From NCBI RefSeq assembly GCF_964019385.1, contig NC_088653.1, positions 9,042,290-9,106,289 of the forward strand: a stretch of DNA of 64,000 nucleotides. Direction: 5' to 3'. The position numbers and the translations under genes were made by a program. Every line of letters begins with the position of its first letter. Positions within the stretch are counted from its first letter, which is position 1. The DNA comes from Sycon ciliatum (Eukaryota > Porifera > Calcarea > Leucosolenida > Sycettidae). Positions 2,004-60,377 of this stretch are shown here, one piece after another. The notes under the pieces were generated by a model. The model ran no database searches. It was not told the origin of the DNA and saw only the letters and a program-made list of their open reading frames with translations.

Positions 2004-2269
2004 CACCTGACGACAATTGGGCTGACATCAAGCGCCTATTGACTCCAGCGAGCATCAACCTCACCATGTGCCAGCGCGGACTCGAATCTCTTCTGGGGAA
2101 ACTCTCCTTCGCTGCAGGAGTCATCGTTACCGGCCGGATATTTGTGCGGCGCCTGTAGTCTATTTACAGTCACAACCAGCAGCCTCACTACCGCATCAGT
2201 CTGACTACCGAGTGCCAGGAAGATATTCAATGGTGGCTTAGGCTCCTGGAATAATGGAACAGAAAGTCA

Positions 2270-2716
2270 TTATTGCTGTTCCCAGATGAGACACCATCTC
2301 GAGACTTGGAGCTGTTCACTGATGCCAGCGGCACACTGGGTTGGGGCGCATTCTACAGCAGCCGCTGGCTTCAAGGGACCTGGTTGCCTGCGAAACTCGC
2401 TCACAACATTGAGTTGAAGGAGCACTACGGTTTGGTCACAGCTTGCTGCACCTGGGGCAAGGAATGGTGCCAGCTTCGTATAACAATGCACTGTGACAAC
2501 AAGGCTGTGGTTGATTGCATCCGCTCCGCCACATTCATGTCACCGCCAGTGAGGACCCTGCTCAGGGAGCTGTTCTTTGTGTGCGCCCGCTTCAAATTCA
2601 CCATCACTGCTGCTCACGTTGCTGGCCAGTCTAACTGCATTGCCGATTTGCTGCCTCGTTTCCGCATGGAGGAATTCCGGGGTGTCGCCGTAGCTGCTCA
2701 AGCACAACCAGACTGA
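2270..2716 (+). CDS. DIRS-like RNase H domain (copy 1)
   Basis: An uninterrupted 147-codon frame covers a complete RNase H domain: LELFTDASGTLGWGAF with the first catalytic Asp, the ELKEHYGLVTA helix with the expected Glu, MHCDNKAVVDC with the second Asp, and TAAHVAGQSNCIADLLPR near the end, which supplies the His/Asp region. The domain removes the RNA strand during reverse transcription. It follows the RT fragment in another phase, so the polyprotein is broken although this domain reads cleanly. The same domain recurs at 17,594-18,070 with stops, and as short pieces at 6,003-6,130 and 21,911-22,050. Confidence 0.65.
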   Translation, partial: LLLFPDETPSRDLELFTDASGTLGWGAFYSSRWLQGTWLPAKLAHNIELKEHYGLVTACCTWGKEWCQLRITMHCDNKAVVDCIRSATFMSPPVRTLLRELFFVCARFKFTITAAHVAGQSNCIADLLPRFRMEEFRGVAVAAQAQPD

Positions 2717-3660
2717 GCAGTGCTGCCATTCCAGTCGATGTAGTAAGGCCTTGACATACAGGTACCGATTGCCATTGCAAATTTGCTGTGCTGAGAACCT
2801 GCGTTGGATTTTATCCATCTGCATGCCTCCGTTTATCCCCCTCATGCCTTAACCCTTTGCATGCTGGGCCCCTTTTCTCCAATAGGCCGGCTGTCCAGCG
2901 CACTGACTCTCTTGGTGAAGTTTGCGCGCAGGTCCGAAAGAAATTTATTCTCATTTAACTCCACCTTGACAGATTTTATCATCCTGGGCTTGTTGGAAAG
3001 ATCAGGACCAAGCGAATACATCAAGGTAGCCCTCAGCGACATAGACACACCAGAGCCACTTCCACCTCCTCTCCAAACCACTCCACCATGCCTCGGAACT
3101 GCACAACAACTCAATTTCACGTTCTTGGTCGGCATCTTGCCAAAATTCAACCGATTTTCACAATTCAAACTGCATGGCGAAGCTGAGATCCCAGGGCTTC
3201 ATTTGATGCTTATCAAGCATGCGACGTGCCATACATAGACACTTAGTCACTTCCACCTCCTCTCCAAACTACTCCACCATCCCTCGGAACGCCACAACAA
3301 CTCAATTTCACGTTCTTGTTCGCCATCTTGCCAAATTCAACCGAGTTTCACGATTCAAACTGCACTGCGAAGCAGAGATCCCAGCGCTTCATTTGATGCC
3401 TATCAAGCATGAGATGTGCCAAAGGGAAATCCCCCAGTACGCTCCAATAAATTGAAGTCATGAACAAAAAATTCTTGTTCGCTCTGTGGCGTGATTTCCA
3501 TGTTCATCTTGTCACCGCTCAGTGAATCTTTATCCTATCGTGAAGAACGTTATTATCACCGGAAAGATGAGCTCAAGACCTTTCCAACGGTTTATTGATT
3601 GTTGCTATGTGTTTATGTCTCACGGAGTTACGATAGTTTGTACACTGGTCTAAGCACTGC
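2717..3660 (+). repeat. DIRS 3' noncoding repeat with internal duplication (copy A)
   Basis: This non-coding stretch follows the RNase H and recurs at 18,071-18,975, and in shorter form at 6,131-6,815 and 22,040-22,715. It contains an internal duplication: a segment of about 190 bp with ccacttccacctcctctcc and aacaactcaatttcacgttc occurs at 3,057-3,236 and 3,247-3,430, whereas the 6.1 and 22.0 kb copies have one unit. A TTAACCCTTTG start at 2,849 resembles the piggyBac-like MITE terminus at 58,330. Short ORFs here are not conserved as protein and I do not call a gene. Confidence 0.6.
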
Positions 3661-3700
3661 AATATAATGCGCGAATTTTCATAGTTTCAGAGCGCATATA

Positions 3701-3797
3701 CCGTAAAGTCGCGGATAAAAGCCGGGTTTGCGTCCAAGCACATCGTGGATAGAAGCCTGAACATCAAACGGGCCAAATGCATATAAGCCTGTCTGTA
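3701..3797. mobile_element. Truncated TA-flanked MITE (copy A)
   Basis: Left end CCGTAAAGTCGCGGATAAAA after a TA dinucleotide, matching the full element at 19,022-19,347. The right half is absent: the sequence jumps at about 3,797 to protease-coding sequence that in copy B lies near 19,660. Copy A therefore has a deletion of roughly half a kilobase here. Confidence 0.55.
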
Positions 3798-5215
3798 CCC
3801 AGGATGCGGTGAACACTTTCCGCAAACATTTGTTTCCAAGGTAGTGTGAAACATTCAGTTAATCTCTACCCAAAAAGGAGGGACCGTCGTTTTCAACCAC
3901 CCGTATTAGGACATTCTCGGTATTCTTGGCAATCGTAACTGACATTGTAGTTTCCCCAATACATTCGATCTTAGTACCGGAAAACCCTTTTAGCAGAACC
4001 GTTGATTTCTGCAATGTACGCTTATCACCACCACATTTTTGAAATCACTTTTCGTCAAAAATGACACATCGCTGCCTGTGTCTAATTCCATTTCGACCAC
4101 TAAGGGCCCGGTCACACATGCACTCGAAAGTAGCGTATACGCTGAAGCGAGGTCGCAGGAGCGAAAAATGGCATGGCAACGGCGAAAAGCGGAACTTCCG
4201 CTTCAGCGGAAACTCCAATCCGCTTCCTCCAAAATTTTCGAAGCGAGACTGTCGCTTCTGCGGATTCGCTTCAGCGGAAAACACCACGGTCTGCTGTATA
4301 TGGACTTGCAACGAGAAATTTGTATGCGTATGATGTCCATGCAACAAAAATGCGTGCAAGATAGTCATTGACCTCGTCTATTCTCCGTACCGTATGCACC
4401 ACAGTCTCATGTTCCTCCAAAGTAGGAGTTGTGCCCTGTTTGTATGTGTGACCACACACACGTGGTTTCGCTGGAGCGACACCAGGCTCGCTGCCGCCGA
4501 ACCTCGTCGCCGAAGCGAATCCCAGTGCATGTGTGACCGGGCCCTAAACCATTCATAGTGACCGGTACAAACAGTGGACCATTAGAACCCTTTTCAGTAG
4601 ACTGAGATACATTGCACACGTGAAACAACGGTACACTCTCACCAGTATCATCATCATCATCGTACGTCGTGTCGTCATCCAACTGATGGGTATCTTGTTG
4701 GCGTTTCTTCGACCGGAAAACGCACTCGAGATGCCCCATGCTCTTGCAGGAACGGCACTTCGTCGACTTGTGGGTACACCCGTCTGCCAAGTGACTCTCT
4801 GAACCACACCGGTAAAACGTTTTCTTTACACCAGACATGCCATGAATTGTCGACCTTGCTGGTGTGCGGTTTCGAGTACAAGTTGGAGTAGAGGTACGCC
4901 TCGACCTCGAGTCTGACGACTTGACAGCATTTAGAGACGTAGTGCCAGGACTCATCTCTGCAGCAAACTTTGCCGCACTCTTCTCACTCAGAGTAATCTT
5001 ACTGATTTTCTGAAATGTGTCGCCATCTCCGTCTGGCTTCTCCAGAATCAATCGTTGCACTGCAACACTCCGCAAACCACTGATGAACTGGTCCGATAGG
5101 GCTGTATCAAAATGGCTCTCACACTTGCAGTCTCCAGCACTGCACTGCAGTCGATGCGAAAAGTCAGTTACTGACTCGGTCGGAAGTTGATTACAGTTCC
5201 TGAAAGCGTAAAAGC
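3798..5215 (-). pseudogene. Ty3/gypsy gag-protease remnant (copy A)
   Basis: On the - strand this holds gag with two zinc knuckles (CYRCGSESHSADGC-type and C-SCKSMGHLECV) at about 4,730-4,850, an Asp-rich linker, then the retropepsin region at 3,800-4,100. It is a near-identical sister of the longer 19,500-20,749 copy. Differences disable it: a 441-bp MITE (4,104-4,544) sits inside the protease, the first CCHC has C replaced (TFYRCGSES), and the upstream gag is cut near 5,215 by a deletion relative to copy B. Gag would package RNA and the protease would cut the polyprotein. No RT is attached. Confidence 0.6.
4104..4544. mobile_element. PIF/Harbinger-type MITE
   Basis: Inverted termini GGGCCCGGTCACACATGCACT and its complement (AGTGCATGTGTGACCGGGCCC) bound a 441-bp insert, flanked by a 3-bp TAA duplication (4,101-4,103 and 4,545-4,547). 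The empty site is visible in copy B near 19,970, where the sequence runs straight through. A 3-bp TWA target and GGGCC ends are the signature of PIF/Harbinger. No transposase is inside, so it is non-autonomous. Confidence 0.8.
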
Positions 5216-6002
5216 GTGCGTCACGTCACCAAGAGGAAAGACCATGTTTTTCTTACGCATACGCATTAGGCTGTCGAAGTGCTTACGTCACACTGCCTGA
5301 AAACTCGTACTTACACGTCGTTACAAGGCCAAGTGGTGACAAACAAAAGTCACGTCACCTGCACTTGTCGTGTTTCCGGCGGTCACGGCATCACTTTGAC
5401 AGGGGCGCGATGGTGCAAGATCGCGACTTCAATTTTTGTTTTACTAAGAAGTTTCTCATTCGCTCTCTAGCCATCATGCAGTGTTTTCCTGCTCAGTGTT
5501 CACCAGCACCTGAGAGATAGGAGTTCTGGTTTTCGCTTGCCGCTGGACAAGGAAACAAATCCGGAGTTGGTAGGTCTCAGAACTGAAAGAAATCAGCAAT
5601 CGCTGCGATAGAAATAACGGAGACACCCATCATTGCTTCTTGGCCGGCGACTACATGTAAAGCCGGATGACAGTACAGGCACAGCAGTGGCCAATCAAAA
5701 AATCAGCTACAGCTTCTCCTTCTTGCTAAAGCGAAAACTACAAGCTCGGCGACAAGTAGCAGTTAATTTGAAATAAAATAATCTCGTTCGCGCTCCTCGG
5801 TCAAAAATGATGCTGTAGCTGTGTTCATTGCATGCTGCTGGCACTGTCCACACGACAAGTGCCGATTTCGCGACTTTTGTTTGTCACCACTTGGCACAGT
5901 AACTACGCGTTGTCAAGAAGCTGTGACGTCAGACTTCAACGGCCCATATGACATGTGAACATGTAGTCATCATATAATAACTACACTACATAGCAGGAGC
6001 AC
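5216..6002. repeat. Non-coding repeat shared with copy B (21,130-21,910)
   Basis: About 780 bp nearly identical to 21,135-21,910. No conserved protein reading was seen. It links the gypsy gag remnant to the second DIRS RNase H piece, so the junctions of copies A and B are the same and the block moved or duplicated as a unit. Confidence 0.6.
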
Positions 6003-6860
6003 TTTGTGTTGGTCACAGCTTGCTGCCCCTGGGGCAAGGAATGGTGCCAGCTTCGTATCTCGATGCACTGTGACAAGGCTGTGGTAGATTGCATCCGCTC
6101 CGCCACATTCATGTCACCGCCAGTGATGACCCTTCTCAGAACCTGCGTTGGATTTTATCCATCTGCATGCCTACATTTATCCACCTCGTGCCTTAACCTT
6201 TTCCATGCTGAGCCCCTTTTCTCCAATAGGCCGGCTGTCCAGCGCACTGACTCTCCTGGTGAAGTTTGAGCGCAAAGCTCCGAAAGAAATTTATTCTCAT
6301 TTTACTCCACCTCGACGGATTTTCATCATCCTGGGCTCGTTGGAAAGATCAGGACCAAGCGATTACATCATGGTAGCCATCGGCGACATAGACACACCAG
6401 GACCATTTGCACCTCCTCTCCAAACTACTCCACAGTCCCTCGGAACGCCACAACAACTCAATTTCATGTTCTTGTTCGCCATCTTGCCAAATTCAACCAA
6501 GTTTCACGATTCAAACTGCACTGCGAAGCTGAGAACCCAGCGCTTCATTTGATGCCTATCAAGCATGAGACGTGCCAAAGGGAAATCCCCTTGTACGCTC
6601 CAAAAACACTGCGAAGTTATGAACAAAAAAATGCCCGTTCGGTCTGGGGAGTAATTTCCGTGTTCATCTTGGCACCGCTCAGTGAATCTTTATCCTACGG
6701 CGAAGAACAATATATCACCGGAAATATGAGCTCAAGATCTTTCCAACGGTTTAGTGACTGTTGCGGTGCATATGTGTCTCATGGAGTTACGATAGTTTGT
6801 ACACTGGTCTAAGCACTGCAACGTTATACGCGAATTTTCATAGGTCAGAGTGCATATATG
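6003..6860 (+). repeat. Second DIRS RNase H scrap and 3' repeat (copy A)
   Basis: Starts with a piece of RNase H (LVTACCPWGKEWCQLRI, CDKAVVDC) and joins directly to the DIRS 3' region, deleting the end of the RNase H. The same internal deletion is present at 21,911-22,780, so both derive from one deleted master. Confidence 0.6.
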
Positions 6861-6989
6861 CAGTCCTGGCTCGAAAAGGAATAATAACTTGTTCTTAGCT
6901 CTCGTGCATTGGTGGTGAACGCTTGCTGAGGTGTTGTGTACTGGTTTTCTGGGAACAGCTTCCTTCAACTAGCTGCTTAGCTGCTACTA

Positions 6990-7625
6990 TCGCTGTTTGA
7001 AATTGTGTACTATTGGTCGGCAAACAAACAAACAAACTGAGGGTACACAAACAGTTCAGCAGTGCAATGTGGGGCAGCAGCCGTGATAACAAACATGTAT
7101 GTGGTACAGGCCTCGAGCCAGGTAGCTATATCGTGAACCTTGCGACACACCTGCTTCGCGTCATCTCACTCAACGATATTTAGCTGGCTATCGCTATTCG
7201 GGCTATGCGCCAGCCGGATTGTTCGGGGGGTGGGGGTGGGATGGAAGATATCAGTAAACAAACTTGAAATATCTACGAACGTCCCTCGAAAGATACATTC
7301 TTGCACAGCCTTGGGCACAGCTGGTGCAGGTGGCTGAACGGGCGGGTTGCAAGAGCGTGGGCCTTGGGCGGGCGTAGCGGCGGCAGCAGTTGCATTGCCT
7401 TGGCCTTGCGTGAGGTGCAACATATAGTACTTTCAGCAATAGGGGCCGAAAAAGTCGACTGTACCTCGTCCCATACTAGAGCGCGGAGGTCCATTGAGCC
7501 CGCGTCACCTGACCTGGTCGAGGAGACATTTGTTCCAGTCGGGCTCCTGGGCTCGCGAGCCGTGTCCGCACTGTCATGTTGCTGGTTTTCGAGGCCAGAG
7601 CAGACCTCACTACCATGGGATAACT
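6990..7625 (-). pseudogene. DIRS-like gag remnant (copy A, - strand)
   Basis: Reading the - strand, ALVWDEVQSTFSAPIAES is followed by an Ala/Gln-rich linker and VPKAVQECIFRGTFVDISSL, then the helical KVHDIATWLKA stretch that matches the gag at 500-720. Several frames are needed, so it is a pseudogene. The zinc-finger C-terminus seen in copy B (23,103-23,444) is missing: sequence jumps at about 7,020, a deletion of about 760 bp. A caaacaaacaaac run at the junction suggests a slippage or microhomology origin. Confidence 0.55.
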
Positions 7626-12536: not shown

Positions 12537-13600
12537 GTAAGTCAGGATATCCCTCGTGCATGCTTGTTTGTGTGGGAGCAGAAAAGAAGGATTACCGTAC
12601 TTTCGCGATTAGAGCCCTCTCTTGAATAGTGCTCTATGTTGAAGAGTGCCCCAGTCTCTATGAGCATGTGAAAAAAATATATAGCCCTCCCTTGGATTGT
12701 GCCCCCCCCCCCCTCTCCCCCCGGCTTGTAACCAAGCGCATGTGCACGTTTTGAGTTCCAGGCCATGTGATAAGGGTCGTACTGACGTAATGTCCTGACA
12801 CTTCCCGGACTTGCCATTTTGCCTCACATGTCGCTGAAAGGCAACATTTTTTTAATTCTCGACCGAACGATATGAACGAACACAATTTCCTTGGAAACTG
12901 CACACAAACCTTGCACCTAACCACATCATCCCTGCCTGATCATCTTTGCATCTCTCATACTCCCCGTCGAAAGGTCCTTGTCACGCTCAGCAGTCCACTT
13001 GTCAAAAATGGTGGCACGCACAGCGCGGAGCTTCGTGCCATGAGGAGGGCCACCATGGCCGCCTTTTCTCTTGCCAATCCTTAAGGACTAGAACTGATCT
13101 CAGAAAATTCGAAATCGGCATTCTTGCACATACTTCTCCCACGATAAGTTGAATAACTCCACTAATAACTTGTAGGTCGATTTTCACTATCTCTGACTTT
13201 CTGTTAGGCTCTATCCATAAGTAATACATTTCCTGTAGACATGACAAGCATCAACGTAAATGTACAGTGAGGGAAGCAATGTCAATTGCTAGCGAAATAC
13301 ACATCGCAACGCAATTCCCTCAAAGTTTATCGTAGAGCACTGGGATTTTGCAAAGACCTCTGGATTCCGGTAGCATGATTTTGGTCATAGCACCTGGCTG
13401 GCTAGGGACGCGCAAAAATGGACAAATCCCCAGCTGAAGTGCATTTTACAAGCTCATAATACAGCTTGAGATATAGCCCGACTACAGGACCTTGGGTCGC
13501 GTTCGTTCGGGTTTCTTCAAGACGACAGCTGAGAGTTTTCTGTTGCCGATAGATCTCAGTAGTATGTATAAAGCCGGTTCTGTGAGAGGTACATGATCCA
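12537..13600. other. Intron or spacer, no gene recognised
   Basis: The first 60 bases after the exon match the intron start after 31,001 (gtaagtcaggatatccc, cagaaaagaaggatt). 12,597-12,760 begins with ccgtactttcgcgattagagccc, resembling the TIR of the 19,022 MITE, but no partner end was found. A C run lies at 12,702-12,712. Nothing else was recognised. Confidence 0.4.
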
Positions 13601-13601
13601 G

Positions 13602-13688
13602 CCCGAAAAAATGGGGTTCTATTGATAGTACCCCATTTTTGGGGTAAAAACCGGGCGCTGGTTTTTACGTTAAAAATGATTTTTCGGG
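13602..13688. repeat. Nested hairpins forming a possible three-way junction
   Basis: Outer arms CCCGAAAAA (13,602-13,610) and TTTTTCGGG (13,680-13,688) enclose two perfect hairpins: AAAATGGGGT/ACCCCATTTT around 13,608-13,639 and GTAAAAACC/GGTTTTTAC (13,644-13,652 and 13,660-13,668). An alternative TACCCC/GGGGTA pair overlaps. It sits immediately before the gene cluster and may be a terminal, recombination or RNA element. Confidence 0.55.
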
Positions 13689-13694
13689 TGAAGG

Positions 13695-14473
13695 GTGGAT
13701 TGTACCCCACCTTTTGAATTTGAGATCTTACGTGCCTATGTACGTGAAAAGAGACTTTGTGAAGAAGAAGAAGAAGAAGAAGAAGATCAAGAAGGGGAGG
13801 AAAACTGTGTCATCATCTCGATAATGTTGTTCATGAAGGAAGATACGTATGTTCTTCTTGTGGACTTGTCATGGATGTGGTTTACTTACCTGAAGTTGAT
13901 GTGCATAAGAGATGTAGTTTGATGAAGAAGCCTTACGCTGCAGATGAGCGGTTATGTGGTGTGGATCGTCATCTTTTGCATTTTCTTTCGAAAACTGAAC
14001 TCTTATCCGATCAGCTTCGTGTACACCCTCTTCGAGAGCAGATATGTGCGATGAAGAAGTCCTGTTTGTACAAGAGTACAAACTATGCTATAGCATTATC
14101 CTGTAAAGTAGACGATACGAATGTGGATGCATTACGTAAACTGCATTCTTATTTACCTCATAGCAATTTATCCTGGTTGAGGTTCAGTCGAATCATGAAA
14201 CCTCTTCCTCAGCATTTTCCACTCCTATACATACTGCATCTCATGGAGTCGACCAGGATGGAGTCTTCATTGCAACTGTTCACGTTGCGTTCGAATTTGC
14301 TGCTTTTATCCCCATCTGATATATCTCTTATGACATCATTGATTGCTGCTTATTGCTGGGAAACCTATTCAGTTGATCACGTGATCCAGAACATGCACAC
14401 GTTTGACTGTGATCTTCTTTCCATACTGTATCAATTCACTAAGGTGGCGGTATCATGTAAGGAATCTTTATAA
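13695..14473 (+). pseudogene. TFIIB-like transcription factor (zinc ribbon plus cyclin-like repeats), one frameshift
   Basis: The second frame (ATG 13,871, 200 codons) continues upstream without a stop into a zinc-ribbon signature: YVCSSCGLVMD with the CxxC at 13,850-13,861, plus an upstream Cys-His pair at 13,808-13,816. TFIIB-family proteins have this C-x2-C-G-L-V hallmark near the N-terminus. Downstream, two helical segments fit the cyclin-like repeats of the family: one with NYAIALSCKVDD then LSWLRFSRIMKPL (about 14,075-14,200), the other with SLMTSLIAAYCW then DLLSILYQFTKV (about 14,325-14,450). The likely start is ATG 13,695 in another phase, with a run of eight Glu. A GTGT dinucleotide run at 13,806-13,810 is the likely frameshift site. 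TFIIB recruits RNA polymerase II, and homologues occur in nucleocytoplasmic large DNA viruses. It is intronless and heads a same-strand cluster. The family call is by eye; a divergent host TFIIB-related gene remains possible. Confidence 0.5.
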
Positions 14474-14482
14474 CGAGATATG

Positions 14483-14613
14483 ATTTTGGCGGGCACGATG
14501 CTGATTGATCAAATGTTTTTGGCGCGCTTGATGCTGATTGGTGAAAAGTTTTTGGCAGGCTTGATGCTGATTGGTCAAATGTTTTGGGCGGGCTTGATGC
14601 TGATTGGTTAACA
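14483..14613 (+). promoter_or_regulatory. Four-copy CCAAT-box array
   Basis: The core GATGCTGATTG (inverted CCAAT: ATTGG in three of four copies) occurs at 14,498, 14,530, 14,563 and 14,596, spaced 32-33 bp, with a conserved GGCGGGC/GGCGCGC segment before each. The 33-bp period places the sites on one face of the helix. It stands 40 bp before a TATA box, so I read it as the activator array of the 230-aa gene. The first copy has ATTGA. Confidence 0.7.
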
Positions 14614-14652
14614 CATATCTTATCATTTCAATCCACCTCCCTCTCTGACTCG

Positions 14653-14660
14653 TATAAATA
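14653..14660 (+). promoter_or_regulatory. TATA box
   Basis: TATAAATA, 74 bp before the ATG at 14,727, with room for a start site near 14,685. The combination with the CCAAT array indicates an RNA polymerase II promoter. Confidence 0.65.
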
Positions 14661-14726
14661 CGAATGATTGTCCTGCAGTTGAGTCATTCGTTCATCGTGA
14701 GTTGTCCTGACTTCACTTCCTAGAAG

Positions 14727-15419
14727 ATGGCTTCCCTATACGAGCGACAGATGAAGAAGAATTCCGCTCTTCCTGCTGACCCTCCTCGAGTTGTGCTCTC
14801 TTCGAAGCCAGTACCGGCTAAGCGTCGCTATGTATTACCTGCTTCTACCAAGCTCCACAAAGAAATTGTGGTGGATGGGTTTCAGGAGGATATGCAGCTG
14901 TCCTACAAGTTATCGGGTGAATCCTTCTACAAACCTGGTTATAAGATGTACTTCCCTTCGGAAGCTCTGCCAGCCTGTGGTAGTATGGCAACAGCCCGCA
15001 AAGATGCTCAAGGACAAGTTTACATCGAACTGAACGAGTCCAAAGAGTTCATCATTACGAACTTGATCAAGACTTGTCCATCGCTCCGTGACACTCTCCG
15101 AAGTGGACGTGTGGAGAAGATCAAGACCAACTTCTACACATCACGTTCGTCCGACGGTCAATGTCGGGTGAACATCAACGGTGAAAACAAGCTAGTCCCG
15201 ACCAGCTCGATCAAACTGGATGTGGAACAAGATGTACTCATCTACCCCGGGGCAGTCTCCCTCGACACTGACGAGCAAGTGATTAAGGTACGTCTTGCTG
15301 TTGCTCCAATCATCTGCATCAACGTGGAACCCAGATGTTTTCATCGTGCTCTGGACGCACACATGACACTTTCTATCACGGAACTGAAACAGCTGACTGA
15401 GAGCTTCACATCATTATGA
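14727..15419 (+). CDS. Unknown 230-aa protein, intact and intronless
   Basis: This is the only complete gene in the cluster, with a strong promoter upstream. ATG 14,727 is the first ATG after the predicted transcription start. The product has a basic, Pro-rich N-terminus (about residues 1-45), then a mixed alpha/beta body with alternating hydrophobic strands (for example QDVLIYPGAVSLDTDEQVIK and VRLAVAPIICINV) and a helical C-terminus ending TELKQLTESFTSL. There is no signal peptide or membrane segment. I do not recognise the family. A nucleic-acid-binding (OB-fold-like) or capsid-associated beta protein would fit the context, but this is inference. Codon use is balanced, unlike the surrounding decayed repeats, and there are no stops, so it may be young or under selection. 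No clear AATAAA follows; ccaataagtctttaatgaac lies after the stop. Confidence 0.6.
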   Translation: MASLYERQMKKNSALPADPPRVVLSSKPVPAKRRYVLPASTKLHKEIVVDGFQEDMQLSYKLSGESFYKPGYKMYFPSEALPACGSMATARKDAQGQVYIELNESKEFIITNLIKTCPSLRDTLRSGRVEKIKTNFYTSRSSDGQCRVNINGENKLVPTSSIKLDVEQDVLIYPGAVSLDTDEQVIKVRLAVAPIICINVEPRCFHRALDAHMTLSITELKQLTESFTSL

Positions 15420-15596
15420 AGTGTCGTCGTCCAACAAGACGATCAGCTGGTAGAGACCTTCCAATAAGTCTTTAATGAACTGCCTTCTTTACCACACAGC
15501 TGATCATTCATTCTTATTCTATCCTATACTATCCTATACTACTTTCTACGGCAATATCTCATGATACTCATTAAAAAAAACTTCTAAAGAACAAGT
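15420..15596. other. Intergenic spacer in the cluster
   Basis: Contains a short tandem (tatcctatac twice) and an A-rich stretch just before the next ATG. No gene. Confidence 0.4.
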
Positions 15597-16278
15597 ATGG
15601 GTGGTGTCGTGTCGAGTAGTACGTCCACGGAAGAGTGCTGCCTTACCTCTTCGGACTCTAGTATCCCCCACTGCTACTAGTGGAGAATGGGTTGCAGGAT
15701 GTGAAAAGAATGGAATTGGGAAAGATGAACCAGGGTCATCTCATTTGCACACCATCAAGGAATGCGTCATTCATGACAAGATCAATCACCTGCTAGTACG
15801 AGTTGCTGACCATGTTCTTGCGACATATGCAAAGGATGAAGGTGAATGCTCGGAGACTCGTCATGACATTGACCATTTGTTCGTTCGTGATTCGACATTG
15901 TTTCACACGTGGACATCTGCTTAACATGTTGCTATGAAGAGACCTGACATTCTCAAGTATGCTGTGAGCTTTACTGTTGGCGATGGTGATCGTGAACAAG
16001 CTGAACGACTTGAAAGTTGCATATGCGGCATCATGGAAGGTTTATGGAGTCATGCGTCAAACGACATCGTTGCCCTGGAGATGACCTTTGCATATTCAGT
16101 GACTCTATTGGACATGCTGGCACGGAAAGGCGATCGTGCGAAGGTGTTGTTAGCGCGAGATTTCCTCATGAAACACATCCATGCTCAATCGAGGAGGAGG
16201 ATGAATGGTCCACTCATCAACACGATGACTGTGGCCCTTGTTTTCTGTGCATTGCCTATTGTTTACCTGTTCTTATGA
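15597..16278 (+). pseudogene. Broken membrane protein with myristoylation-type start
   Basis: The first ATG reads MGGVVSSSTSTEE, a good N-myristoylation start (Gly2, Ser6/7). That phase ends after about 27 codons. A second phase is open from about 15,601 to a TAA at 15,922, and the same phase reopens at once and continues to 16,278. So one frameshift (likely in the cccccac run near 15,667) and one stop separate three collinear parts. The last part is helical (LESCICGIMEGLW, IVALEMTFAYSVTLLDML) and ends in a hydrophobic segment (MTVALVFCALPIVYLFL) suited to membrane anchoring. Myristoylated, tail-anchored proteins of this size are common virion or entry-complex components of large DNA viruses, but the family is not recognised. 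Confidence 0.45.
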
Positions 16279-16330
16279 GCATCATAAAGTTTTTTTGAGA
16301 AAGAAAATATTTCCTATCATAATTAGTACA

Positions 16331-16360
16331 GTGTTTGTGTGTGTGTGTGTGTGTGTGTGA
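16331..16360. repeat. GT microsatellite
   Basis: Pure (GT) run of about 15 units inside the cluster, just before the fibre-like gene. It may have displaced its original start. Confidence 0.8.
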
Positions 16361-17593
16361 AGGTGGCGTACTGGGCTACGCATTTCCATAGGAGTGATGG
16401 TGACGAGGCCTCCCTCAAACACATGCAAAGCATGCGGAATGACATTGTCAAGATGCAATCGGTTGTGGGGAACGATGACACCGAAAACACCTTGGTTCGT
16501 AATGTGGAGAAACTGAAAATGATGAGAAAGCCGATGAGAGCAAAGTGGAAGATGTGGAAAACAGATCTACGCGCTACACAGATCAAGCCATAGCAGCTGA
16601 TGAGCTGCACGTTAAAACAGACAGATCCGTGTCCATGAATGCTAACCTTGACATGAACGAGCATTCCATCTGTAATTAGGCGTACGATGATAGCTCTTTG
16701 ACATGTGCTGTCCCTGTCGGTTGGGTCAAGAATGAAATCCGTCAATCATCTTCGAGATTGCACCACGATATCGACGCTGTGCGCACGATGAAAGGTCCTC
16801 GTGGTGATCGGGGATTGGGATGGCTTAGCGGAGGTGGCATGCTATTGAACTCTATAGGGAGAAATGGTGACTTCTATCTCGATGCAACCACGCTCATCAT
16901 GTACAAGAAATTCAGCTCGAAATGGATGGCTTTCAGTCAGCTTCATGGATCAAGAGGTGAAGATGGTCCACGTGGAGAACGTGGATCGATCGGTCCCGAA
17001 GGTGAGACTGGAATTAGAGGAACTAATGGGCAAAGTGGTGAACGCGGTCAAAAAGGTGATCAAGGAATACCTCGTCCAGAAGGTCCCAGAGGTGAAGTTG
17101 GAGAACGTGGATTAGTCGGTCCTGAAGGTGAGATTGGACCTAGAGGCGAAGATGGACAAGACGTCCCACAAGGTGAACGTGGTGTGCAAAGTGATCAAGA
17201 AGCTGTAGGTCCCGTGGGTCCCCAAGGAACCATCAGTGCAACCGGTCCTCCAGGAAACAGAGGTCCTGTGGGCCCCCAAGGAATCATCTGCCCAGGTCCT
17301 TCAGGAGCCAGAGGGCCCGTGGGTCCGCAATCAAATCAGAACCTATCCGATCCGTTTCATCTATTACCTCACATTCGGAGAAACGCTTACCTCTACATAT
17401 ACTCTCATCCTAGCAGATTTGAATCCGTCAACAGGGTGAGCAGAAAAAGATACAGAGGGGAAATCTCGTTGATTTGAAGGACAAGACAATCAACGTGAAC
17501 AGCATCGACATGTTCCGAGACGGTCACTTCTACCTCAACATTTCACAACGCAAGCAAGTTTCCATTAGAGAACGATTCGTCTATCTGAACAGA
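16361..17593 (+). pseudogene. Collagen-like fibre protein, broken
   Basis: In order: a helical, charged segment (about 16,390-16,590), then in a shifted phase VKTDRSVSMNANLDMNEHSI ending at a TAG (16,678), then TCAVPVGWVKNEIRQS. The N-term pattern of an NLDMN-x-HSI element followed by a VKNEI-type helix is a module I associate with trimeric tail-fibre-like proteins. Next come NGDFYLDATTLIMYKK (from 16,861) and a Gly-X-Y collagen-like domain (about 16,950-17,330) with several imperfect triplets. A beta-rich C-terminal part (YLTFGETLTSTYTLILADL; GHFYLNIS) is broken by frameshifts and cut at 17,593 by composite copy B. Such proteins form surface fibres on phages and giant viruses; host short-chain collagens are the alternative, but those have introns and signal peptides, absent here. 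Confidence 0.55.
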
Positions 17594-18070
17594 AAGTCAT
17601 TATTGCTGTTCCCAGATAGGACACCATCTCCAGACTTGGAGCTGTTCACTGATGCCAGCGGCACACTGGTTTGGGGCGCTTTCTACAGCGGCCGCTGGCT
17701 TCAAGGAACCTAGTTGCCTGCGCAACTCGCTCACAACATTGAGTGGAAGGAGCACTTCGGTTTGGTCACAGCTTGCTGCACCTGGGGCAAGGAATGGTGC
17801 CAGCTTCGTATCACAATGCACTGTGACAACAAGGCTGTGGTAGATTGAATCCGCTCCGCCACATTCATGTCACCGCCAGTGAGGACCCTCAGGAAGCTGT
17901 TCTTCGTGTGCGCCCGCTTTAAATTCACCATCACTGCTGCTCACGTTGCTGGCCATTCTAACTGCATTGCCGATTTGCTGCCTTGTTTCCACATGGAGGA
18001 ACTCCGCGGTGTAACCGCAGCTGGTCAAGCACAACCAGACCGAGCAGTCCTGCCATTCCAGTCGATGTAG
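17594..18070 (+). pseudogene. DIRS-like RNase H (copy B)
   Basis: Starts abruptly at the sequence equal to 2,260 (gaacagaaagtcattattgc) and encodes the same RNase H with several lesions: TAG at 17,711, TGA at 17,846 and a small deletion before LRKLFFVCARF. The catalytic motifs FTDASGTL and HCDNKAVVD remain legible. The left junction with the fibre gene is sharp, with no RT upstream. Confidence 0.65.
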
Positions 18071-19019
18071 TAAGGCCTTGACATACAGGTACTGATTGTC
18101 ATTCCAAATTTGCTGTGCTGAGAACCTGCGTTGGATTTATCCATCTGCATGCCTACGTTTATCCCCCTCATGCCTAACCCTTTGCATGCTGGGCCCCTTT
18201 TCTCCAATAGGCCGGCTGTCCAGCGCACTGACTCTCTTGGTGAAGTTTGCGCGCACAGGTCCGAAAGAAATTTATTCTCATTTCACTCCACCTTGACGGA
18301 TTTCATCATCCTGGGCTTGTTGGAAAGATCAGGACCAAGCGAATAGACCCTGGTAGCCCTCAGCGACATAGACACACCAGAGCCACTTCCATCTCCTCTC
18401 CAAACTACTACACCGTGCCTCGGAATGGCACAACAACTCAATTTCACGTTCTTGTTCGGCATCTTGCCAAAATTCAACCGATTGTCACAATTCAAACTGC
18501 ATGGCGAAGCTGAGATCCCAGCGCTTCATTTCATGCCTATCAAGCATGCGACGTGCCATACATAGACACTTTGCCACTTCCACCTCCTCTCCAAACTACT
18601 CCACCATCCCTCGGAACGCCACAACTCCATTTCACGTTCTTGTTCGCCATCTTGCCAAATTCAACCGAGTCTCACCGTTCAAACTGCTCTGCGAAGCAGA
18701 GATCCCAGCGCTTCATTTGATGCCTATCAAGCATGAGATGTGCCAAAGGGAAATCCCCTGGTACGCACCAAAAAATTGAAAAGTCATGAACAAAAAATTC
18801 CCGTTCGCTCTGGGCCTTGATTTCCGTGTTCATCACCGCTCAGTGAATCTTTATACTATCGTGAAGAACGTTATTATCACCGGAAAGATGAGCTCAAGAC
18901 CTTTCCAACGGTTGATTTATTGTTGCTATGCGTTTATGTCTCACGGAGTTACGATAGTTTGTACACTGGTCTAAGCACTGCAATATAATGCGCGAATTTT
19001 CATAATTTCAAATCGCATA
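18071..19019 (+). repeat. DIRS 3' noncoding repeat (copy B)
   Basis: Collinear with 2,717-3,698 including the internal duplicate (18,390-18,570 and 18,575-18,740). No gene. Confidence 0.6.
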
Positions 19020-19021
19020 TA

Positions 19022-19347
19022 CCGTAAAATCGCAGATAAAAGCCGGGTTTGCATACAAGCACATCGCGGGTAGAAGCCTGAAAATCAAACGGGTCAAATG
19101 CATATAATCCTGTCGCGCATAGAAGCCTGGCGTCTATGCAAGCGCGGATCGGGTAGGTCAGGAGTGCATGTGCGATGTACGGTGCATAGTAAAACTGTCG
19201 CCGGTAGTCAGTGCTAGATGTACGCGTGTCGCGCATATCATTGGTGCATATAAGCATGGTTTGCATACAAGCCTGGTTTTCATTGTAGCCTGATGCAGAA
19301 AGCGGCTTATATGCTTATAGGCCCGGCTTTTGTCCGCGACTTTACAG
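19022..19347. mobile_element. Full TA-flanked MITE (326 bp)
   Basis: Bounded by TA (19,020-19,021 and 19,348-19,349), with inverted ends CCGTAAAATCGCAGATAAAA and TTTTGTCCGCGACTTTACAG. The interior has an internal repeat series (gcatataagcctg, gcatacaagcctgg). TA target and CMGTAAA ends suggest a Tc1/mariner-related MITE. Confidence 0.7.
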
Positions 19348-19479
19348 TATGCGCTTCTTGCTTGAAAAGGAATAATAACTTGTTCTTAGCTCTCGTGCAT
19401 TGGTGGTGAACGCTTGCTGGAGTGCCGTGTACTGGTTTTCTGGGAACAGCTTCCTCACCTAGTTGTTTTGCTGCTACTA

Positions 19480-20749
19480 TCTCTGCTTAAAATTGCGTAC
19501 TATTGGTCGGCTGTGCTCGGATGTGAAACGGCACAGATCGTGGCTTGAAGAACATTGGTTTTGAGTCATCTACATGCAGGGTGTCTTGAACACCTTTCAT
19601 TTTACCCAGTGACGATTGCTCGAGTAATGCAGGGAAGTCTTTCTTGATTGTATCTGTACCCAGGATGCGGTGAACACTTTCCGCAAACATTTGTTTCCAA
19701 GGTAGTGTCAAAACATTCAGTTAATCTCTACCCAATAAGGAGGGACCGTCGTTTTCAACCACCTGTCTTAGGACATTCTCGGTATTCCTGGCAATCGTAA
19801 CTGACATTGTAGTTTCCCCAATACATTCGATCTTAGTACCGAAAAACCCTTTTAGCAGAAACCTTGGTTTCTGCAATGTACGCTTATCACCACCACATTT
19901 TTTGTAATCACTTTTCGTCAAAACTGACACATCACTGCCTGTGTCTAATTCCATTTCGACAACTAAACCATTCATAGTGACCGGTACAAACAGTGGACCA
20001 TTAAAACCCTTTTCAGTAGACTGAGATACATTGCTCACGTGAAACAACGGTACACTCTCACCAGTATCATCATCATCATCATCATCATCGTACATCGTGT
20101 CGTCATCCAACTGATGGGTATCTTGTTGGCGTTTCTTCGACCGGCAAACGCGCTCCAGATGCTCCATGCGCTTGCAGAAACGGCACTTTGTCGACTTGTG
20201 GGTACATCCGTCTGCCGAGTGACTCTCTGAACCACACCGGTAACACGTTTTCGTTACACCAGGCATGCCATGATTTGTCAACCTTGCTGGTGTGCGGTTT
20301 TGAGTACAAGTGGCAGTAGAGGTACGCCTCGACCTCGAGTTTGACGACTTGACACCATTTAGAGACGTAGTGCCAGGACACATCTCTGCAGCAAACTTTG
20401 CCGCACTCTTCTCACTCGGAGTAATCTTACTGATTTTCTGAAATGTGTCGCCATCTCCGTCTGGCTTCGCCAGAATTAATCGTTTCACTGCAACACTCCG
20501 CAAACCACTGATGAACTGGTCCGATAGTGCTCTATCCAAATGGCTCTCACACTTGCAGTCTCCAGCACTGCACTGCAGTTGATGGGAAAAGTCAGTCACT
20601 GACTCGGTCGGAAGTTGATTACAGTTCCTGGAAGCGTGAGTCACGCTCGATCGTGATGTTTGAACCTTGTAATGATCCGTCAGTTTTCCCCCGATCTCCT
20701 GATACTTAAAATCACTCGCAGCTTTAGGTAAACAAAGAGTCTTCAACAA
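19480..20749 (-). CDS. Ty3/gypsy gag-protease (copy B, - strand)
   Basis: A 342-codon frame (20,749 to 19,721) encodes the C-terminal half of gag, two zinc knuckles (CYRCGSESHSADGC and CRFCKRMEHLERVC), an Asp-rich linker and an aspartic protease with ELDTGSDVSVL, ending at PSLLGRD. The protease motif is intact. A second frame (19,711 to 19,487) continues into the segment that precedes RT in Ty3/gypsy pol (SLGKMKGVQDTLHVDDSKP, then FFKPRSVPFHIR). It stops there: RT, RNase H and integrase are missing, replaced by repeats. Its start lies above 20,749 and the upstream gag is not seen beyond about 20,790. The Asp run is a GAT trinucleotide repeat that is longer here (8 Asp) than in copy A (5). Confidence 0.7.
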
Positions 20750-20789: not shown

Positions 20790-21910
20790 GAACTTGACTT
20801 TCTTCATTTTTGCTGTTGTTATGAGTGCACAATTTATCTTAAACCATTTTACTCAGAAGAGAGATAAGATAAGCTGATACCCGTTTTTCACAACGAGTCT
20901 TTTCAGCCGTACTGCCATTCGCCGCCACAACTCCTATTTCGTTTGCACAAAAGAAAAAAATACAGTTTCTCTCGCCATTCATCAAAATCTCCGCTGTCAA
21001 ATGGCTCTATCGTGGCCTTGGCCATGGCAATGGAAACAATTCGTAACTATCACGACTGTAGTACCAGGACAACTCTATTAATAATAATATCTTTGTCGCC
21101 ATTGTTGTGTCTACGCTCACACAAAGTACTCTTCAAGTTCACCAAGAGGAAAGACCATGTTTTTCTTACGCATACGCATTAGGCTGTCGAAGTGCCTACG
21201 TCACACTGCCTGAAAACTCATAGTTACACGTAAATACAAGTCCAAGTGGTGACAAACAAAAGTCGCGTCACCTGCACTTGTCGTGTTTCCGACGGTCACG
21301 GCATCACTTTGACAGGGGCGCGCTGGTGCAAGATCGCGACTTCAAATTTTGTTTTACTAAGAAGTTTCTCCTTCGCTCTCTAGCCATCGTGCAGTGTTTT
21401 CCTGCTGAGTGTTCACCAGCACTTGAGAGATAGGAGTTCTGGTTTTCGCTTACCGCTGGACAAGGAAACAAACCCGGTGTTGGTTGGTCTCAGAACTAAA
21501 AGAAATCAGCAATCGTTGCGCTAGAAGTAACGGAGACACCCATCATTGCTTCTTGGCCGGCGACTACATGTAAAGCCGGATGACAGTACAGGCACAGCAG
21601 TGGCCAGAAGCAGCTACAGCTTCTCCTTCTTGCTAAAGCGAAAACTACAAGCTCGGCGACAAGTAGCAGTTAATTTGAAATAAAATAATCTCGTTTGCGC
21701 GCTCCTCGGTCAAAAATGATGCTGTAGCTGTGTTCATTGCATGCTGCTGGCACTGGAAACACGACAAATGCCGGTTTCGCGACTTTCGTTTGTCACCACT
21801 TGGCACAATAACTACACGTTGTCAAGAAGCTGTGACGTCAGACTTCGACGGCCTATATGATATGTGAACATGTAGTCATCATATAATAACTACACTACAT
21901 AGCAGGAGCA
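20790..21910. repeat. Non-coding repeat (copy B), 5' flank of gag
   Basis: The first 340 bp have no counterpart in copy A (deleted there); 21,135-21,910 equals 5,223-6,002. Possibly leader or LTR sequence of the gypsy element, but no matching LTR partner was identified. No gene. Confidence 0.45.
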
Positions 21911-22800
21911 CTACGTGTTGGTCACAGCTTGCTGCCCCTGGGGCAAGGAATGGTGCCAGCTTCGTATCACAATGCACTGTGACAACAAGGCTGTGGTAGA
22001 TTGCATCCGCTCCGCCACATTCATATCACCGCCAGTGATGACCCTGCTCAGAACCTGCGTTGGATTTTATCCCTCTGCATGCCTACATTTATCCACCTCG
22101 TGCCTTAACCTTTTCCATGCTAAGCCCCCTTTCTCCAATAGGCCGGCTGTCCAGCGCACTGACTCTCCTGTTGAAGTTTGAGCGCAAAGCTCCGAAAGAA
22201 ATTTATTCTCATTTTACTCCACCTCGACGGATTTTCATCATCCTGGGCTCGTTGGAAAGATCAGGACCAAGCGATTACATCATGGTAGCTATCGGCGACA
22301 TAGACACACCAGGACCATTTCCACCTCCTCTCCAAACTACTCCACCGTCCCTCGGAACGCCACAACAACTCATTTTCATTTTCTTTTTCGTCATCTTGCC
22401 AAATTCAACCAAATTTCACGATTCAAACTGCACTGCGAAGCTGAGAACCCAGCGTTTCATTTGAAGCCTATCAAGCATGAGACGTGCCAAAGGAAAACAC
22501 CTAGTACGCTCCAAAAACACTGCGAAGTTATGAACAAAAAAATTCCCGTTCGCTCTGGGGAGTGATTTCCGTGTTCATCTTGTCACCACTCAGTGAATCT
22601 TTATCCTACGGCAAAGAACATTATATCAACGGAAAGATGAGCTCAAGACCTTTCCAACGGTTTAGTGACTGTTGCGGTGCATATGTGTCTCATGGAGTTA
22701 CGATAGTTTGAACACTGGTCTAAGCACTGCAACGTAATACGCGAATTTTCATAAGTCAGAGTGCAAATAATTAAGCAGTCCTGGCTCGAAAAGGAATAAT
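21911..22800 (+). repeat. Second DIRS RNase H scrap and 3' repeat (copy B)
   Basis: Same deleted structure as 6,003-6,860 (RNase H scrap CCPWGKEWCQLRI, then 3' region). Confidence 0.6.
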
Positions 22801-22924
22801 AACTTGTTCTTAGCTCTCGTGCATTGGTGGTGAACGCTTGCTGTGGTGTCGTGTACTGGTTTTCTGGGAACAGCTTCCTTCAACTAGTTGCTTAGCTGCT
22901 ACTATCTCTGTTTGAAATTGTGTA

Positions 22925-24290
22925 CTATTGGTCAGCTGTTTGCGACGCCAATCAGCAGTCATTGCACCCGGTTGCTGGTACTATTGCCGCTCAAGCATGA
23001 ACGATTGCTTTGGCCGTTTGCAACGCCAATTGGTTCACCCTGGTTCGCTGTTTGCAATATTGATCAGGTACCATGGCATCCGGTCGCGGGTACTGTTGCG
23101 GCTCACTCATGAGTGATCACTTTGGCTGTTTGCAGTGTGTATAGGAAAGAAGCTATGTACAGAGTCAATCGGTTTGGTGGTGGCCGATTTGCTCTGCGCT
23201 GCTCCTGCTTGCACCTGAGGTATGGGTGGTCCTTGCCACACTGGCTGCAGGTATGGGAGAAGTGGCACGACGACGACGAAGAAAAGGGACGTCTATTTAA
23301 GTTGCGGCAGATTTCTTGGCTGTCGCTGGTGCGAGTGCGACCACTGGAGGTAAGTGCTGCTGGCTTGGGGTATTGGCTTGGAGACGAAAAGGACACGGAC
23401 CCGCCCCTGGATGGAACGTCTTCCATTGAGCGCATGTTGGGCACGTATGCCTGTGAACTTGAGTGTGAAGGCTATCTGCTACAGGTTCACGTCGACGGTG
23501 TTCAACCTCTTCAGGTATTTGCTGGGCCGCGAGCATCCGCAGCTGGCGGTCGTATTATAGCCACGAGCTTGGGGAGAACTGGTGGTTAGCAGTCACTATC
23601 AACCTTCATCATTTTGCGAGAACTGTGGAAATACGTCCAGTGAGAAGGCAGATTTTGCCTGTGCTTCTGGTGAAGTAATATAAAGCTAAACAAACAAACA
23701 AACTGAGGGTACACAAACAGTTCAGCAGTGCAATGTGGGGCAGCAGCCGTGATAACAAACAAGTATATGGTACAGGCCTTGAGCCAGGTAGCTATATCGT
23801 GAACCTTGCGACACACCTCCTTCGCGTCATCAGACTCAACGATATTTAGCTGGCTATCGTTAGTCAGGCTATGTGCCAGCCGGATTGTTCGGGGGTTGGG
23901 GTGGGGATGGAAGATATCAGTAAACAAACTTGAAATATCTACGAACGCCCCTCGCAAGATACATTCTTGCACAGCCTTGGGCACAGTTGGTGCAGGTGGC
24001 TGAACGGGCGGGTTGCAAGAGCCTGGGCCTTGGGCTGGCGTAGCGGCGGCAGCAGTTGCATTGCCTTGGCCTTGCGAGAGGTGCAACATATAGTACTCTC
24101 AGCAATAGGGGCCGAAAAAGCCGACTGTACCTCGTCCCATACGAGAGCGCGGAGGTCCATTGAGCCCGCGTCACCTGACCTGGTCAAAGGTAACATTTGT
24201 TCCGGTCGGGCTTCTGGGCTCGCGAGCCGTGTCCGCACTGTCATGTTGCTGGTTTTCGAGGCAAGAGCAGACCTCACTACCATGGGATAG
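22925..24290 (-). pseudogene. DIRS-like gag (copy B, - strand, more complete)
   Basis: On the - strand, from 24,290: LVWDEVQSAFSAPIAEST; then VPKAVQECILRGAFVDISSL and KEVCRKVHDIATWLKA (24,089-23,586 frame); then, after a frame change, a zinc region QEICRNLNRRPFSSSSSC, HFSHTCSQCGKDHPYLRC (23,444-23,103 frame). The CCCH plus CGKDHP knuckle is the expected DIRS gag C-terminus, and it shows what copy A has lost. At least two frameshifts make it non-functional as one protein. Beyond 23,100 the sequence (gtttgcgacgccaat units) is non-coding. Confidence 0.55.
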
Positions 24291-45650: not shown

Positions 45651-46363
45651 ATGGAGCGCTGCTAGACAGAAGGCATTCGAGTCTCTAAAATCAGCATTAC
45701 TCGAGGCGCCAGTGTTGCAACTGGCCGATGTTGAGAAAAGCTCCACAGTAGAAACTGACGCAAGTGACTTTGCCGCGGCGGGTGTGCTCCTGCAGCAGGG
45801 AGAAGATATGGATTTGCATCCCGTAGCCTATTGTAGTCGGAAACTGTCAGCTGCAGAACACAACTATACTGCGGCCGAGAGGGAAACGTTGGTTGTGGTA
45901 TTTGCATTAAAGTGCTGGAGAATCTATCTATTCCGCCACTTTGACCTGATGACTGATAATGTGGGTGTTGTCTATTTACGAACCAAACCGACTCTCACCA
46001 AGGGCGAGGCAAGATGGGTAGAGGTTTTAGCTGACTATGACTTTATGGTCTTTCACAAACCAGGAAAGAAAAACATTGCCAATCTGCTTTCACGCCGTCC
46101 AGATCTGTTCAGTGATTCTGAAATAGGCGGGTCATCCTCTCCTCCTAACATTCAGGTGAATGCCATAGAGCATACCCTAGAGATTAATCCAGACATAGCG
46201 CAGTTAATTGTCAGCGGTTACACGTGCGACAAGGATCTTGCTCCCATTATCAGGAGACTGAAAAATTCAAGCCATGACAATCTGCACGACCGTTACCTTT
46301 TACTTGAAGTAAATGAAACACCCGGGTATCTTTATCTCAGATCTTCACCACAGAACCGGTTAA
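45651..46363 (+). CDS. Chromovirus C RNase H
   Basis: SSTVETDASDFAAAGVLLQQ, HNYTAAERETLVVVFALKCW and LMTDNVGVVYL give the three acidic residues. It ends at FHKPGKKNIANLLSRRPDLF and the start of the integrase N-terminal extension, where the foldback element interrupts. Confidence 0.8.
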
Positions 46364-48607: not shown

Positions 48608-49375
48608 TTAAGCATTCGAAAGAGTAGCAAACTCCGACTCGCCCTGCTTCAAGAATACCATGACTGTGTGACTGCGGGGCATCCCGGTGGAGATCACACC
48701 TATTTCAGACTCGCTAGATATTTCTATTGGCCCAGAATGGGACTGGATGTAAAGGCGTTTGTCAAGTCATGTGACGTCTGCCAACGAGTTAAAGGCGGCC
48801 AGCTAAAAACTGGTCTCTTGCAGAACTTACCAGTGCCAAGTCAGCCGTGGGCGGATATCTCGATGGATGTTATCATGGGTTTGCCTAGGACCAATACAGG
48901 TCATGATGCTATTATATGTATTTGTAGACCGCTTGACAAAGTGTGTACATTTAGCACCTACTTCCTCTACTATTGACGCTAAAGGAAGTGCTGATCTGTA
49001 TATTCAACATGTATTTCTACTGCATGGTTTGAGTTCTAGTATTGTATGTGATCGTGATCCAAGATTTACTGCATCATTTTTTCAGGAATTTTTTGATCGC
49101 TTAGGAACGAAACTAGCATTTAGTACTGCCAATCACCCTCAGACAGATGGCCTAACTGAACGAGTAAACAGAAGAGTAGAGGATGTGCTGAGGGCTTTTG
49201 TAAATCATAGGCAAGATAACTGGGATATGCTCCTACCTCTCTGTGAGTTTTTATCAACAGCGCTACTCAATCATCTACAGGAAACACACCGTTCTTCTTA
49301 AATTACGGTCTAAATCCCAAAGCGCCACTCGACTTCCTCAACCCTATTCAGGGAGGCAGAGATTCAGCTGATTGG
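48608..49375 (+). pseudogene. Chromovirus C integrase
   Basis: Zinc domain EYHDCVTAGHPGGDHTYFRL with C-x2-C at CDVCQRV, core DISMDVIMGLP (first Asp), SIVCDRDPRFTASFFQEF (second Asp), STANHPQTDGLTERVNR (Glu). Frameshifts near 48,930 and 49,270. Confidence 0.8.
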
Positions 49376-52497: not shown

Positions 52498-52637
52498 GCA
52501 GTGCAGCAAAAGTAAGTTACAAAGAGTGCACATACGCATGAATGGACCGTAGTTGCATGTACTTCACACTTGGGAAGTTCGCCAGCCAACCGCGCAGGCA
52601 TGCAGAGACTCTTTGTAACTTACTTTTGCTGCACTGC
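52498..52637. repeat. Perfect 30-bp inverted repeat
   Basis: 52,498-52,527 and 52,608-52,637 are exact reverse complements (left arm starts gcagtgcagcaaaagtaag) around an 80-bp loop. Could be the ends of a tiny MITE or a hairpin. Confidence 0.75.
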
Positions 52638-60270: not shown

Positions 60271-60377
60271 GAAAAGCCTTCGAGTCAACCAAAATGAAAA
60301 CACGATTCGAACGAGGATGATCGCCTGAGCCCTCGGCATTCGAATCGTGTTTTGGTTGACTCGATCGAAGACTTTTC
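60271..60377. repeat. Imperfect hairpin, arms about 40 bp
   Basis: cttcgagtcaaccaaaa...cacgattcgaa at 60,278-60,311 pairs with ttcgaatcgtg...ttggttgactcgatcgaag at 60,339-60,370 around a 27-bp loop. Confidence 0.75.

Follow-up and report, generated by a model that had tools for sequence, protein, structure and literature searches.

A decayed gene cluster in the calcareous sponge Sycon ciliatum as the probable left end of an endogenous Maverick-like virus with longer sister copies

A compact gene cluster in the genome of the calcareous sponge Sycon ciliatum is very probably the left end of a degraded endogenous copy of a Maverick-like double-stranded DNA virus, of which longer sister copies are present in the same genome. 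The cluster lies in a stretch of 64,000 nucleotides (contig NC_088653.1, positions 9,042,290 to 9,106,289), which we call the window, and holds four reading regions, A to D. An earlier reading made from the letters of the window alone (the sequence-only reading) had proposed that the cluster is what is left of an integrated DNA virus, the rest of which might lie elsewhere in the genome, and this was borne out, as longer copies carry capsid-like, ATPase-like, protease and integrase genes. The assignment is carried by a palindrome that is conserved between the window copy and the terminal repeats of the longer copies, by the collinearity of the window with those copies, by their integrase and by the target duplications that flank them.

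The whole genome (538,412,230 bases in 313 contigs) was searched for gene B of the cluster and for a 533-aa capsid-like gene. Gene B gave 416 candidates, of which 150 were scored; all 150 were matches, and 147 of them had no internal stop. The capsid-like gene gave 231 candidates, and all 81 scored were 98–100% identical, with 80 of the 81 free of stops, indicating a recent burst. Pairing counts cover the scored copies only, 266 B and 150 capsid candidates being unscored. Sixty of the 150 scored B copies stood singly, and a scored capsid-like gene lay 5.0–5.96 kb downstream on the same strand in 27 of these 60. Four longer stretches (L015, L016, L017 and L018) were collinear with the window up to position 17587 at 92–93% identity. 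Three capsid-bearing copies (group I) were delimited completely, with lengths of 14,850, 14,832 and 14,828 bp and terminal inverted repeats, each about 1.24 kb long, that start AGTAGTTAG. Each was flanked by a perfect 6-bp target duplication (CATGCG, CGTAAC and CCCGTT). Four copies, including one on contig C11 that was compared without its left end, were 99.1–99.99% alike in the stretches where they overlapped.

In the complete copy C1:1709500-1724349 (L015 position 501 to L031 position 5350), the genes followed one another on one strand in the order A remnant, B, C remnant, collagen fibre (589 aa, PF01391), proteins of 251, 201 and 533 aa, a basic protein of 260 aa, an ATPase of 250 aa, a protein of 353–355 aa, and a frame of 499 aa in which a protease-like part and an rve integrase part are joined. 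Gene A was reduced to its last part in this copy (match from window position 14367). The ATPase, whose complete frame comes from the sister copy L039, has a P-loop and the motifs GQSNMGKS and YVIIDD (Walker A and B); its only Pfam match was AAA_14, with 19 bits against a cut-off of 27. The integrase matched PF00665 with 41.8 bits (cut-off 32.6), its residues D227, D289 and E323 stand in the spacing of a DDE triad, and its C-terminus gave a weak chromodomain match (PF00385, 12.8 bits, E 0.11). Judged by gene order, size and known relatives, the 251-aa protein would be the penton, the 533-aa protein the major capsid protein and the 260-aa protein a core protein resembling adenovirus pX/pVI. Each terminal inverted repeat also contained an additional open reading frame (ORF; L015:873-1637 on the minus strand, and L031:4123-4953), with no Pfam family above cut-off.

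The left terminus of the window copy is probably at position 13558 (Table 1). The palindrome that follows it has matches in each of the two terminal repeats of L015/L031, as well as in L041, L034 and L035, and the sequence GGTACATGA between terminus and palindrome is common to the window copy and L015. With 13 occurrences in the window, AGTAGT by itself is weak evidence of a terminus, and it is the combination with the palindrome and GGTACATGA that makes the argument. Of the cluster limits given by the sequence-only reading, the cut by a repeat block on the right was placed at 17587, and the left border is nearer 13558 than the proposed 13600. When 3,194 sliding stretches of the window were compared, the fold-back at 13581-13710 ranked second in strength among distinct sites (z = -5.84; none of 200 shuffles was equally stable), and its part from about 13590 to 13710 takes a three-armed shape. 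This shape is like that of parvovirus terminal repeats, but the fold-back sits about 45–50 bases inside the end and its conservation is limited to the simple palindrome core; Pfam scans of a set of ORFs brought up no NS1-like gene among them. A parvovirus-type terminus was rejected, as complete copies show the conserved palindrome inside a longer terminal repeat. Other strong fold-backs, calculated as DNA, were found at 60241-60410 (-38.5 kcal/mol) and 52501-52630 (-31.8 kcal/mol), among the strongest of the same 3,194 stretches.

The four regions lie on one strand and show no visible introns, in agreement with the sequence-only reading, but all of them are damaged in the window copy. The N-terminal part of A sits in a different frame. 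Gene A belongs to a family of 14 proteins (E ≤ 0.01) that share a nearly invariant C-x-H...C-x2-C pattern and a conserved core around NYAIAL.C. PF08271 matched A of the window with 15.1 bits, below the cut-off of 29; it was also below cut-off in 8 of the 11 relatives scanned (best 18.1 bits) and gave no match in P0007, P0008 and P0013. Profile comparison with archaeal TFB aligned 14 columns with a probability of 35%. No TFIIB cyclin fold was found in A by profile comparison or by PDB sequence search, and a single-sequence AlphaFold model (pLDDT 36.7) was too poor to judge cyclin folds. The family, which shows a zinc-ribbon motif, is real; A as a plain TFIIB was rejected, no relation to TFIIB having been found past the zinc ribbon; on its sequence, "TFIIB-like" is to be taken as a predicted zinc-ribbon protein of TFIIB-like pattern. 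Long (GAA)n runs were observed inside gene A of L032 (8008-8424) and L034 (about 7200-7525). In L032 and L017 the remainder of A followed about 3 kb further on, and the frame break of A in the window likewise lies near a GAA run.

Gene B of the window encodes 230 aa, compared with 246 aa in L015 (16 codons more) and 256 aa in the palindromic elements described below, and a B-like protein that is 87% identical (P0003) is present as a gene model in a source database. The motifs of the CCAAT/TATA promoter proposed for B were present, with a TATAAA at -74 and ATTGG (inverted CCAAT) at -190, -157 and -124, within or beside a 33-bp tandem repeat. Gene C keeps the start and the hydrophobic end of the myristoylation-type membrane protein that had been proposed, but its frame stops after 27 codons, what follows lies in a different frame that is itself interrupted by a stop, and relatives carry about 260 bp (262 extra bases in L015) that are missing here. 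The collagen-like fibre proposed for D was recovered by Pfam, but in pieces in three frames and truncated by a repeat that is also found at 2257.

Table 1. Features of the decayed virus copy and its borders (positions in the window)
Feature	Position	Strand	Remarks
Cluster, very probably the decayed left end of a virus copy	13558-17587	+	four reading regions A, B, C, D
Candidate left half of 6-bp target duplication	13552..13557	.	directly 5' of AGTAGT; right half gone with the right end
Probable left terminus AGTAGT	13558..13563	+	50 bases ahead of the conserved palindrome (43 in L015)
Inverted repeat ATGGGGT...ACCCCAT	13607..13640	.	conserved in other copies within their terminal repeats; forms the core of a longer fold-back
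Gene A, zinc-ribbon (TFIIB-like pattern) protein, broken	13712..14473	+	open frame 13763-14473; relatives P0006-P0019
Tandem repeat 5' of B (33-bp unit, 3.9 copies) with ATTGG boxes	14480..14608	+	
TATAAA	14653..14658	+	74 bases before B start
Gene B, 230 aa, no Pfam family	14727..15419	+	open frame
Gene C, MGGVVSSS start, hydrophobic C-end, broken	15597..16278	+	
Gene D, collagen-like fibre, broken and truncated	16327..17587	+	PF01391 E 1.1e-14; 589 aa in L015 (4163-5932)
Repeated retroelement-like block truncating the virus	17587..20500	.	93.5% copy at 2257-3793; homology to virus copies stops at 17587

Several results weigh against a Maverick-like virus. The match of the protease-like part to the adenovirus protease family (PF00770, E 3.8e-4) reached 20.6 bits, slightly under the cut-off of 21.3. 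The 533-aa and 251-aa proteins had no relevant Pfam match and the 533-aa protein had no PDB relative by sequence; the proposed identities as capsid protein and penton, in Mavericks a double jelly-roll and a jelly-roll, are based on size and position, not on fold. No relative of the A, B, capsid-like or integrase proteins was present in IMG/VR. At the left border, L019 (C12:10.53 Mb, on the same contig as the window) matched the window beyond 13558 as far as 13084 with 97% identity, and for this reason the terminus is probable and not proven; the additional likeness is best read as a later duplication of the locus. Finally, no motif A or C of a family B DNA polymerase (PolB) and no frame longer than 599 aa, that of the fibre, was found in the complete group I copy L015/L031. 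The search for other copies with viral hallmark genes, suggested by the sequence-only reading, thus yielded full-length copies with capsid-like and ATPase-like genes, but no polymerase in the complete copy examined.

A PolB motif or a suitable frame was likewise absent from the left part L041 and from one palindromic element examined, and the only P-loop in a frame of at least 100 aa in the complete group I copy was that of the ATPase. Polintons have four core genes, pPolB among them (PMC3671162), and PMC8097293 likewise counts pPolB in the core set. Because no PolB was found in the copies examined, we call the elements Maverick-like and file them neither as Polintons nor as adintoviruses. We consider the chances about even that the 14.85-kb copies are themselves non-autonomous and that PolB-bearing Mavericks, present in the genome now or until recently, drive both these copies and the palindromic elements. 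The lack of a gene counted as core Polinton in the complete copy is consistent with this, and the almost complete deletion of A from that copy demonstrates that deletion derivatives do spread. On the other hand, PolB was absent from both left-end arrangements examined (L015 and L041), and L015/L031, the sole arrangement followed to its right end, was without PolB there as well. Such a dependence would refine the assignment to a Maverick-like virus and does not contradict it.

L041 represents a second lineage (group III). It has an unbroken A of 270 aa and a B homologue only 23% identical to B of the window (E 2e-13), and there is no C between B and the fibre. The A proteins of the two lineages are only about 54% alike, whereas the part from the fibre through the 251-aa and 201-aa genes into the beginning of the capsid-like gene has 95.6% DNA identity to L015; the left (A and B) and right modules were therefore exchanged between lineages. 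By the Nei-Gojobori method on single pairs, dS between lineages was 1.8–2.0 for the A genes and 0.05 for the 251-aa genes. Values of dN/dS between lineages were 0.12 for both the 251-aa and the 201-aa genes, 0.31 for the fibre and 0.21–0.25 for A; A of the window against that of a palindromic element gave 0.41, and B gave 0.32–0.57, the higher values involving the decayed window copy. These data bear on the view that the elements are now plain transposons, with capsid genes carried as baggage and no particle formed. The many near-identical insertions within one genome and the lack of IMG/VR relatives of the capsid-like and integrase proteins would fit this view, but genes that have stayed unbroken in 80 of 81 scored copies, together with the low dN/dS of the 251-aa and 201-aa genes, make it unlikely.

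The remaining 90 of the 150 scored B copies formed 45 head-to-head pairs (group II), with 5'-5' distances of 946–2724 bases (2248–2413 in 36 of the 45), and none of the 45 had a scored capsid-like gene within 15 kb. Those examined belong to palindromic elements, which carry no capsid genes. In C10:26194517-26208877 the arms were complementary to 99.5% over 5.5 kb and to 99.9% over 3.4 kb, and the 114 bases to either side of the centre were perfectly symmetric; five other palindromes tested had no exactly symmetric centre. Going outwards from the centre, each arm has gene A and then gene B, followed by a QQPTT repeat of low complexity, a RING-type ORF that contains HREDGPA repeats (L022:5935-6702, minus strand; PF00097 24.7 bits, cut-off 21) and short ORFs without a Pfam match. 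Repeats resembling HREDGPA are known from large DNA viruses. The palindromes end in AGTAGTTAGTGCGGGG and measured 14,361, 15,396 and 15,008 bp when both ends were located; 6-bp duplications matched in two of the three (GTGGAG and CACGTT) and not in that at C12:8.87 Mb. A and B are common to palindromes and group I (88–89%), and the outer parts of the palindromes had no match to L015 or L031. In six palindromes the two arms differed by 2–5 bases of 1175–1230, with 4 gap columns in four elements and 110 in one, and equal-side arms of different palindromes differed by 1–10 bases. The similarity of the two ranges indicates that the palindrome formed before it spread and is inherited whole. Homogenisation of the arms in each cycle, which predicts arms most alike within an element, was not supported. 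The centre of the palindrome was also compared with the left terminus of the virus; the distance was similar and the sequences were unlike by eye. Just outside a palindromic element on another contig, L021 3339-3745 was about 95% identical to a repeat present twice in the window (46359-46760 and 48207-48611).

Inverted repeats are a known assembly problem, and one of three palindromes lacked a matching duplication and 9 of the 45 pairs fell outside the 2248–2413 range. Nevertheless, it is improbable that the palindromes are assembly artefacts: the 45 pairs are spread over many contigs, two of three palindromes have matching 6-bp duplications, and arms differing by 2–5 bases around centres that are not exactly symmetric in five of six cases are unlike a self-folded read. 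The shared end motif and duplication length suggest that the same kind of integrase serves palindromes and group I copies, and their similar length suggests the same capsid. Most probably the palindromes are satellites, non-autonomous and relying on a borrowed integrase and capsid, a dependence that we infer from these likenesses. We put forward as possible, and tentatively, a two-part system in which a recently active, polymerase-less, capsid-bearing Maverick-like virus inserts and packages a palindromic satellite of similar length (14.4–15.4 kb); the mirror-image arms of this satellite would hold nothing beyond A, B, the RING-type gene and short ORFs. Virophage-helper and other satellite pairs are similar in that the companions lack capsid genes, are of similar length and have the same end motif. 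They differ in that the companions here are palindromic throughout and the helper would be a Maverick.

Two further explanations of the cluster are hardly credible. Small host genes can do without introns and the B-type protein P0003 has a gene model, but an ordinary host gene cluster is contradicted by at least 150 B copies, terminal repeats, target duplications and an integrase. Derivation from part of a giant virus, one of the nucleocytoplasmic large DNA viruses, would account for the combination of a zinc-ribbon factor, a myristoylated membrane protein and a collagen-like fibre, all of which occur in giant viruses; it is contradicted by complete 14.8-kb units with defined ends and by the IMG/VR result described above.

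Among known systems, the elements are most readily compared with Mavericks/Polintons, which they resemble in length, in having terminal inverted repeats with AGTAGT ends, in the 6-bp target duplications and in the rve integrase (PMC4028283, PMC8097293); the second paper names AGTAGT ends and 6-bp duplications as Maverick features. Putative further likenesses are an adenovirus-type protease (here below cut-off), a P-loop ATPase of packaging (FtsK/HerA) type and the capsid-like genes. They differ from Mavericks in the lack of PolB in the complete copy, in the joining of protease and integrase in one frame, and in the A and B left module, the collagen fibre and the palindromic companions. Adintoviruses are defined, in PMC11071296, by a PolB with an OTU-like domain and a hexon recognisable by BLASTp. 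The likeness to them lies in residence in an animal genome, an integrase with a possible C-terminal chromodomain and a myristoylation-type protein, and the difference in the PolB, which was not found in the copies examined here. According to the same paper, some genomes encode adenovirus-class virion proteins and have no recognisable PolB and integrase; here an integrase is present. Polinton-like viruses, mostly without pPolB and rve integrase according to PMC11071308, are similar in having a capsid module without pPolB but differ in that rve integrase is present here, and no replacement replication protein was recognised. The kind of element is known, and what is new lies in the missing polymerase, the module of A with B, the fibre, the fused protease and integrase, and the palindromic elements that accompany it. 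Neither sponge Mavericks nor palindromic Mavericks were described in the titles and abstract beginnings of the literature listed, a coverage outside which most subscription journals fall.

Elsewhere in the window, the retroelement-like block that truncates the virus copy, putatively DIRS-like, is repeated with 85–95% identity (17587-20500, 2257-3793, 4544-5072, 5995-7021 and 21904-22939). An ORF of 314 aa with EAQEL repeats (56398-57342) gave a weak match to the Decapeptide repeat family PF25296 (21.6 bits, cut-off 45).

In the proposed life cycle of the Maverick-like virus, A and B would act early, and the zinc ribbon of A might help host RNA polymerase II onto viral CCAAT/TATA promoters. Replication would be performed by a polymerase from outside the element, of the host or of another element. 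The capsid set may package the genome as linear DNA of about 14.8 kb, with the fibre attaching to cells, and the integrase would insert the DNA. The window copy may have been inserted at about 13558, decayed, been duplicated together with flanking DNA (L019) and then been truncated at 17587.

Mavericks are held to be viruses living as transposons, whose particles have not been observed according to PMC8097293. Such particles might be sought in a genome like this one, in which at least 81 capsid-like genes are near-identical and 80 of those are unbroken. If the two-part system is true, Mavericks would have an equivalent of the virophage-helper pair, with a satellite whose palindrome length fits the capsid of its helper. 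Through the missing polymerase and the palindromic companions, the replication mode and the possible mutual parasitism of such elements become testable.

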